DNA of 64,000 nt from Myxosarcina sp. GI1 (lineage in GTDB: Bacteria; Cyanobacteriota; Cyanobacteriia; Cyanobacteriales; Xenococcaceae): assembly GCF_000756305.1 (NCBI RefSeq), contig NZ_JRFE01000028.1, positions 8,633 through 72,632 of the forward strand, given 5' to 3'. Both the position numbers and the translations under genes were made by a program. The notes below the pieces were generated by a model. It worked only from the letters and a program-made list of their open reading frames with translations. It had not been told where the DNA came from and did no database searches. Position 1 is the first letter of the stretch; each line of letters opens with the position of its first letter. Positions 52,644 to 53,135 of this stretch are shown here, piece by piece.

Positions 52644-52671
52644 AGCCATAAGCCATAAGCCATAAGCCATA
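52644..52671. repeat. Heptamer array, four perfect AGCCATA units
   Basis: Four exact tandem copies of AGCCATA. The reverse complement (TATGGCT) occurs twice in tandem at 53120-53133, so the disrupted four-helix-bundle gene is bracketed by inverted copies of the same heptamer. Confidence 0.85.
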
Positions 52672-52710
52672 GGCTGTAATACGCTATAATTAATATTTGC
52701 TTTGAAAAAA

Positions 52711-53115
52711 ATGTCAACTTTTACAGATTTAAAGATTTGGCAAAAAGCACATGAATTTACTTTGCTAGTATACAAAGCAACAGCTAGCTTCCCATCAGAA
52801 GAAAAATTTGGATTGACCAATCAAATTAGAAGAGCTTCAGTATCTATCGAGTCTAATATAGCAGAGGGTCGCGGACGAGGAAGTGATAAGGATTTTAGCA
52901 GATTTTTATCCATTGCAATGCAGGCTGGAGCCTGCCGACTTTGGCGGTAGCCAAAGGCGATGCCCTCCAGGGCATGTTGTTTTGAAGTTAAGAGCCAGAT
53001 TTTAATTGCTAAAGATTTAAAATTTATTTCCATTTCTCAAGCTGATTTTCTAGGATCTAAAATTGATGAAGTTTCCAGAATGATATACTCTTTTCAATCT
53101 AAGCTTAAAGCTTAA
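52711..53115 (+). pseudogene. Four-helix-bundle (23S rRNA intervening-sequence type) protein, disrupted by a small hairpin element
   Basis: ATG 52711 (MSTFTDLKIWQKAHEFTLLV, then SIESNIAEGRGRGSDKDFSR and FLSIAM) is the N-terminal part of the S23/IVP-type four-helix-bundle family, usually about 115-120 residues. After FLSIAM the reading frame enters three hairpins and meets TAG at 52948-52950. In the same frame beyond the element it continues CFEVKSQILIAKDLKFISIS and QADFLGSKIDEVSRMIYSFQ to a TAA at 53113. Removing about 57 bases gives a normal-length protein. Homologues stand free in many bacteria; their role is unknown. Confidence 0.85.
52920..52976. mobile_element. Tiny three-hairpin element inserted in the four-helix-bundle gene
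   Basis: Three perfect hairpins lie in a row: GCAGGCT-GG-AGCCTGC (52920-52935), CTTTGGC-GGTA-GCCAAAG (52939-52956) and ATGCCCT-CC-AGGGCAT (52960-52975). The spacers are three bases (CGA and GCG). ATG occurs at both edges (52918-52920 and 52974-52976), possibly a 3-base target duplication. The size is a multiple of three, so the downstream frame is kept, but a TAG in the middle loop ends translation. The exact boundaries are uncertain by a few bases. Confidence 0.75.
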
Positions 53116-53135
53116 AGCTTATGGCTTATGGCTTT
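53101..53135. repeat. Heptamer array, five units
   Basis: AAGCTTA three times, then TGGCTTA and TGGCTTT in the same register. The first two units run through the last codons and stop of the four-helix-bundle gene. It contains two tandem TATGGCT copies, the inverse of the AGCCATA array at 52644. Confidence 0.8.

Follow-up and report, generated by a model that had tools for sequence, protein, structure and literature searches.

The segment that interrupts a four-helix-bundle gene in the window (the whole 64,000-nucleotide stretch of Myxosarcina sp. GI1 DNA that was analysed) is one copy of a dispersed repeat family. Judged from sequence comparison, the three-hairpin segments of this family are very probably very small, non-autonomous, modular mobile elements, each made of three hairpins without an unpaired linker. 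The first-pass annotation had proposed a very small mobile element in the window; the dispersed family and the empty homologs agree with this part of the proposal, while the precise insertion and the ATG duplication did not hold and the empty homologs are not syntenic. Two observations go beyond that annotation: stems varied between copies while the layout stayed, and near relatives carried other small hairpin inserts in the same PF05635 family.

The interrupted gene and its three-hairpin segment

The interrupted gene and the segment within it comprised the following features:

52711..53115, plus strand: interrupted PF05635 gene (23S rRNA-intervening-sequence, four-helix-bundle), E 5.3e-35 in two stretches, with family matches at C28:61358-61555 and C28:61598-61720 of the GI1 genome
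52920..52975, plus strand: core of the three-hairpin element, 56 bases, covariance-model E 9.9e-13 in the GI1 genome, missing in homologs
52920..52935, plus strand: hairpin 1, GCAGGCT GG AGCCTGC, read directly
52936..52938, plus strand: CGA spacer, forming the conserved base of the middle stem (CGA in 31 of 33 full copies, CGT in 2 of 33; fold)
52939..52956, plus strand: hairpin 2, CTTTGGC GGTA GCCAAAG, read directly
52948..52950, plus strand: TAG stop formed by the hairpin 2 loop, in the frame that starts with the ATG at 52711
52957..52959, plus strand: GCG spacer, the other side of the conserved middle-stem base (33 of 33 full copies)
52960..52975, plus strand: hairpin 3, ATGCCCT CC AGGGCAT, read directly

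Direct reading reproduced the three perfect hairpins described earlier, with stems of 7, 7 and 7, loops of 2, 4 and 2, and spacers of 3 and 3. The middle-loop TAG at 52948-52950 was indeed in frame with the ATG at 52711, and because the four-base loop makes this TAG, the window protein stops after 79 residues. One open frame ended at 52950 and another ran from 52960 to 53115. When the gene was translated with an X placed at the stop, PF05635 matched (E 5.3e-35) in two stretches of a single frame. The gene resumes in the same frame past the element, and the four-helix bundle named in the earlier reading is PF05635. The remark that the uninterrupted length would fit the family was also reasonable: homologs without an insert were commonly 116-120 amino acids long. 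The otherwise intact second half of the gene suggests that the insertion is recent.

The size and edges first given to the element fared differently. A length of 57 bases is reached by counting the next G; the core is 56 bases, and no clean 57-base insertion was found (58 bases in the window versus 7 in the empty site). The ATG at both edges had been read as a possible 3-base target duplication, but the G of the left ATG is the first base of hairpin 1 and the AT of the right one comes from hairpin 3. The empty sites contradict an element of exactly 57 bases that duplicated an ATG, and this reading was rejected.

In a 1.237 Mb sample of the GI1 genome, seven chains of at least three perfect hairpins, with stems of 6 or more and gaps of up to 6, were found versus none in one dinucleotide shuffle. 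Two-hairpin chains in the same sample showed no excess (27 versus 29 in the shuffle). Five of the seven three-hairpin chains, one duplicate pair among them, had the layout hairpin-CGA-hairpin-GCG-hairpin.

Empty sites and target replacement

The closest homolog found of the window gene, in genome G015 (83% protein identity over 70 residues), reads GCAAT GGGTAGC TGTTTTGAA at the insertion point, with 7 bases between the anchors versus 58 in the window. The site was also empty in the homolog on an uncultured Pleurocapsa contig (L057), and the window segment was seen in none of the PF05635 homologs listed. Because the closest homologs lack the segment, it is an insertion. Neither of the proteins encoded next to the window gene had a match at the seven homolog loci tested; what is empty is therefore the site in the gene and not the position in the chromosome. 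The earlier suggestion that close relatives be aligned for a gene without the segment was thus answered by homologs at other loci, not by syntenic orthologs.

Among the loci first collected, empty sites came only from window-gene homologs; family-wide DNA searches followed. The filled and empty lengths for the three-hairpin family were 58/7 (window), 53/5 (C34), 53/5 (C50), 53/5 (G024:C303) and 60/6 (C33). None of these five filled and empty pairs had a target-site duplication; 5-7 bases were replaced instead. For the 56-base core in the window, about 5 target bases were replaced with a net gain of 51. Comparison with homologous genes shows the window copy and the four others to be insertions, with about 5 target bases replaced in each case.

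Other inserts occurred in genes of the same type. A few codons downstream of this point, the G015 homolog had a different 48-base insert that stayed in frame and contained no stop codon, and the homolog of Pleurocapsa sp. CCALA 161 (L065) had another, 45 bases in place of 3. A second four-helix gene of the GI1 genome (C34) contained two inserts, a three-hairpin element (53 bases for 5) and another hairpin chain (64 for 10). In total, at least five small hairpin insertions were found in four-helix-type genes of the GI1, G015 and CCALA 161 genomes, at sites that were neighbouring but not identical or further apart.

The G015 insert (L028/L138, G015:C7:6254797) represents a second kind of element of about 48 nt with the edges TTTTGAA and TTGAA. 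It had one further copy in G015 (L334, G015:C7:4195960) at 84%, with paired stem changes and a different layout from the three-hairpin elements. A GGGCGGTCA...TACGCCC shell surrounded both the CCALA 161 insert (L065/L141) and the three-hairpin element on C55 (L250, G000:C55:32405), which suggests nested elements.

Heptamer arrays around four-helix genes

The window gene was flanked by two short tandem arrays:

52644..52679, plus strand: heptamer array upstream of the window gene, inverted partner of the downstream array
53102..53134, plus strand: heptamer array downstream of the window gene, inverted partner of 52644-52679

PF05635 genes tended to carry such inverted heptamer arrays on either side, with heptamers that differed between loci (L018, L145, L149, L160, L161, L164 and others). 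Of 37 four-helix loci, 32 yielded a match with flanks that could be used, and these were compared with 250 control ORFs of the GI1 genome. The two 200-nt flanks shared an inverted match of at least 14 nt in 11 of these 32 genes versus none of the 250 controls. A heptamer array lay on at least one side in 19 of the 32 versus 9 of the 250 controls, and on both sides in three versus none. The four-helix gene and its heptamer arrays may be a mobile unit in their own right; a moving host-gene unit would fit the lack of shared neighbours at the seven homolog loci.

A dispersed family with a constant layout

BLAST of the window element returned partial copies only. Since the stems vary, a plain sequence repeat search was insufficient, and a layout pattern and a covariance model were therefore used. 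The constant layout was an outer hairpin (loop usually GG), CGA, a middle hairpin, GCG, and a second outer hairpin (loop usually CC). In the GI1 sample the CGA and GCG spacers gave four full and three half chains; with 12 randomly drawn alternatives to these spacers (11 different), no chain was obtained.

The pattern with fixed loops and spacers and free stems matched 14 times in 27 family genomes, with no match in the reversed control: seven matches in the GI1 genome (two of them identical), four in G013, two in G023 and one in G024. The free outer-stem positions of these matches were paired in 130 of 140 cases. Across 388 genomes of the class, the pattern gave nine matches in nine other genomes (one in the reversed control) with 20 of 90 positions paired, which is about chance.

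Alignment A2 comprised ten copies, namely nine of the 14 pattern matches plus C19:176505, which has CGT; pattern matches with a 15-base middle were chosen, one identical copy was left out, and the window copy lay outside the alignment. The covariance model R1 was built from ten copies other than the window copy, and recovered the latter at E 9.9e-13 in the GI1 search. At least 35 places in the GI1 genome (7.07 Mb) reached E <= 0.005, many of them on both strands, with 150 of 1207 candidates scored. At E <= 0.001 and 150 candidates scored per genome, matches were found in at least 9 of the 27 family genomes, representing two of eight genera. With the same number scored, distinct places numbered at least 26 in G013, at least 23 in G024 and 1-3 in six others, in addition to the GI1 genome. 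Some places were exact duplicates of one another. Pattern and model were both built on the layout, so their matches conform to it.

The genome-wide search for further copies proposed at first pass was therefore positive: related copies lay elsewhere in the GI1 genome by pattern, spacer chains and covariance model. Partial copies were also seen at the ends of contigs C35, C49 and C28 (L003, L004, L005), and because the draft assembly has such copies at contig ends, the copy number is probably underestimated. Plasmid records gave one weak match (Shinella, 29 bases, 93%), taken as chance. A search of titles and abstract beginnings in one open-licence library returned no description of the three-hairpin family, which is weak evidence of novelty.

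Stem pairing, loops and recurrent hairpins

In the ten-copy alignment, 97% of 200 cells were paired and two-sided changes occurred at 15 of 20 pairs. Changes affected both sides in 61 cells and a single side in none. Four of the five measures taken were reached by none of 500 shuffles; the fifth, further pair types, was reached by 32 of 500.

Reducing 103 matches to distinct copies left 55, from 54 loci. Of their 1018 cells, 976 were Watson-Crick, 8 were G·U and 34 were other, with 82 further cells gapped. The G·U share of the non-Watson-Crick cells (8 of 42) was close to the chance expectation of 2/12, in an alignment fitted to structure, a procedure that favours G·U if anything. When 38 distinct copies were folded on both strands, 43 of 1452 pairs were G·U, mostly in copies that adopted another fold. 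The lack of a G·U excess points to upkeep of the pairing at the DNA level. Structure kept at the RNA level was disfavoured, as G·U pairs were no commoner than chance.

In the fold of the window copy, 52936-52938 faces 52957-52959 with a C-G and a G-C pair and an A opposite a G. Because CGA and GCG can pair in this way, the three hairpins abut without linkers. Three perfect stems (the cut applied) were present in 33 of the 55 copies, in which the left spacer was CGA 31 times and CGT twice and the right spacer was GCG in all 33. Among the 66 outer hairpins of these copies, the loop was GG or CC in 44 and different in the remaining 22. The outer hairpins represented 41 different sequences, 13 of them recurrent, and the middle hairpins 27; 12 of the 13 recurrent outer hairpins occurred with at least two partners, and five were found on both sides. 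As outer hairpins recur with different partners, either single hairpins are exchanged between copies or copies recombine; shared hairpins could also come from descent or recombination. In Rfam, five matches were obtained at E <= 5, none near the gathering score, and one of them (E 2) overlapped the element.

Host genes and reading frame

Hosts were assigned from Pfam matches in the GI1 genome and in relatives:

C32:39036: PIN protein
C33: OrfB_IS605/TnpB gene
C50:12587: DDE transposase
C9:93021, with a copy at C10:83227: DDE transposase, the frame past the insert judged from few residues
C1:251, with a copy at C50:7383: DDE transposase, the upstream side not established for C1
C55: open frame of at least 1017 amino acids with Toprim-like and DUF3991 domains
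C19: kinase-TPR protein of at least 1017 amino acids, the insert lying between both parts
Window gene and C34: two four-helix genes
G013 (relative): Uma2 gene
G023: two TnpB genes, with different elements at neighbouring but different points

The host frame on C15 (394 amino acids) had no Pfam match. Nineteen of the 32 distinct GI1 copies had no assigned host, and the frames beside three of them gave no Pfam match. The copy at C35:1939 lay at the end of a HicA-type gene.

A number of three-hairpin copies lie in frame in genes. Eight filled and empty pairs, five of the three-hairpin family and three of other layout, showed a net change that was always a multiple of three (51, 48, 54, 48, 48, 54, 48 and 42). 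The transposase copy on G024:C303 had a TAA stop at its left junction despite a length that is a multiple of three. Frame keeping is no rule, since two copies break the host frame: C14:524567, where the rve domain upstream and the Mu-transpos_C domain downstream lie in different frames, and C43:60547, where a DUF6717 gene is split out of frame in the assembly and the element contains an N. Because the GI1 hosts were mostly found through frames running through the element, this sample is biased towards in-frame cases.

Insertion points could be compared in two sets of hosts. One TnpB gene of the G023 pair (L228, L232) kept LT and was without GW, and the other showed the reverse, as judged against the residues usual at this region in TnpB genes in general. 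The DDE transposases at C50:12587 (L274), C9:93021 (L221) and G024:C303 (L288) had elements closely related to one another at an identical position, the codon directly following a glutamate, which is possibly a preferred site. The C9 and G024:C303 copies were 93% identical over 55 bases that included most of both elements, and the C50 and G024:C303 copies 74% identical over a longer stretch with flanks. These same-codon elements would fit separate arrivals without proving them.

Comparison with known systems

On the best reading, the three-hairpin elements are comparable to Rickettsia palindromic elements (RPE), REPs and the small dispersed repeats (SDR) of Nostoc, and match none of the kinds tested.

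An identity of the family with REPs or REPIN-like elements, in which two outer hairpins of opposite loop orientation would flank a middle one and a Y1 HUH transposase (RAYT/TnpA-REP) would handle and move them as folded single-stranded DNA, is rather unlikely. GTAG/CGTC REPs and REPINs with RAYT are likewise short dispersed hairpins, some of them in ORFs, that occur in inverted pairs and sometimes recur at roughly the same position within a gene; intragenic REPs are reported to encode 20-30 amino acids when they are dimers or grouped (PMC3733652). Cyanobacteria have both REP families and class 2 TnpA proteins (PMC6006769, PMC3733652), and the outer hairpins of the present family tend to inverted loops, GG on the left and CC on the right, a tendency favoured by the pattern and the model. 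The end tag was nevertheless missing in most copies: among 32 distinct GI1 copies, GTAG was found in 3 and CGTC in 8 within about 8 bases of an end on either strand. Stems that vary from copy to copy are at odds with recognition of one fixed stem sequence, and the three abutting hairpins and unconserved stem sequence are further differences from REPs. The REP account in PMC3733652 cites GT pairing for transcription, whereas no G·U excess was found here.

RPE, of which RPE-4 and RPE-6 have been counted as REPs (PMC3733652), are palindromic selfish DNA that lies within various unrelated genes and keeps their frame (PMC10969869). The three-hairpin elements likewise sit in frame in protein genes of unrelated kinds, with C14:524567, C43:60547 and G024:C303 as exceptions. 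RPE are about 150 bp long with a conserved encoded peptide (PMC10969869), whereas the cores of the three-hairpin elements were about 46-61 nt, their encoded peptides differed, and their frames and strands varied. Several of their hosts were, in addition, themselves mobile genes.

The SDR of Nostoc, which the first-pass annotation had called similar in size and behaviour, are 21-27 nt long and have been proposed to move through RNA. Elhai (2008) reportedly described them as minute hairpin modules of cyanobacteria that are nested or linked and show compensatory changes. The style of the three-hairpin family is similar: both are very small cyanobacterial hairpin repeats with compensatory changes. 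Membership in or kinship with the SDR of Nostoc and allies is still improbable. The three-hairpin elements, compared here by description only, are larger (about 53 nt versus 21-27 nt), have three hairpins, and occurred in two genera among the 27 family genomes; the exact pattern had no paired match outside the GI1 genome in the 388 class genomes, and the lack of a G·U excess speaks against structure kept at the RNA level. SDR5 sits inside HIP1 (PMC4390886), but a core edge split HIP1 (GCGATCGC) exactly in none of 32 copies, and in 3 of 32 with four bases of slack.

A local origin of the hairpins at each gene through template switching, with no mobile element involved, is very improbable. Such switching does produce perfect hairpins and small replacements (PMC8794818), and about 5 bases were replaced per site, but independent sites share layout, spacers and loops, which local events would not produce, and the same hairpins recur at unrelated places.

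Equally hard to credit is continued expression of the window gene by ribosomes that hop the hairpins (translational bypassing) or read through the TAG: the downstream half is intact in frame and two GI1 copies do break the frame, but all eight measured inserts kept it, many of them open through, as expected if they are simply translated, and a ribosome that hopped from the left to the right ATG would leave the frame. Bypassed inserts are known from the mitochondria of Magnusiomyces capitatus, where short blocks are likewise inserted in many coding genes (PMC5009743). Those blocks disrupt the frame and are bypassed in translation (PMC5009743), whereas most three-hairpin inserts measured keep the frame.

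Proposed mechanism and implications

For the three-hairpin segments as very small mobile elements, the following course can be envisaged. During replication or transcription a copy would be exposed as single-stranded DNA and fold, and in this folded form it would spread and be joined into new sites with the loss of about 5 bases. Pairing could be kept despite stem drift by replication template switching (quasipalindrome correction), in which one arm is copied onto the other, and swapping of whole hairpins between copies would also keep it. Inside genes, inserts of a net length that is a multiple of three would survive best at tolerant places. Template switching has been proposed for RNA hairpins (PMC8794818) and for palindromes of Nematomorpha (PMC6649704); its part in the upkeep of the three-hairpin elements is drawn by analogy from this literature. 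It is conceivable, although doubtful, that the heritable identity of the family is a DNA shape and not a sequence, with fixed spacers and most loops fixed, paired stems that are rewritten, hairpins that reassort, and a folded single strand as the spreading form, replacing about 5 bases of its target.

The family adds a very small insertion class to bacterial mobile DNA. Its unusually clean compensatory change without a G·U excess makes maintenance at the DNA level, by template switching or by a structure-reading enzyme, testable. Short hairpin DNA added in frame to proteins, the kinase-TPR protein included, is a possible source of new linker segments.
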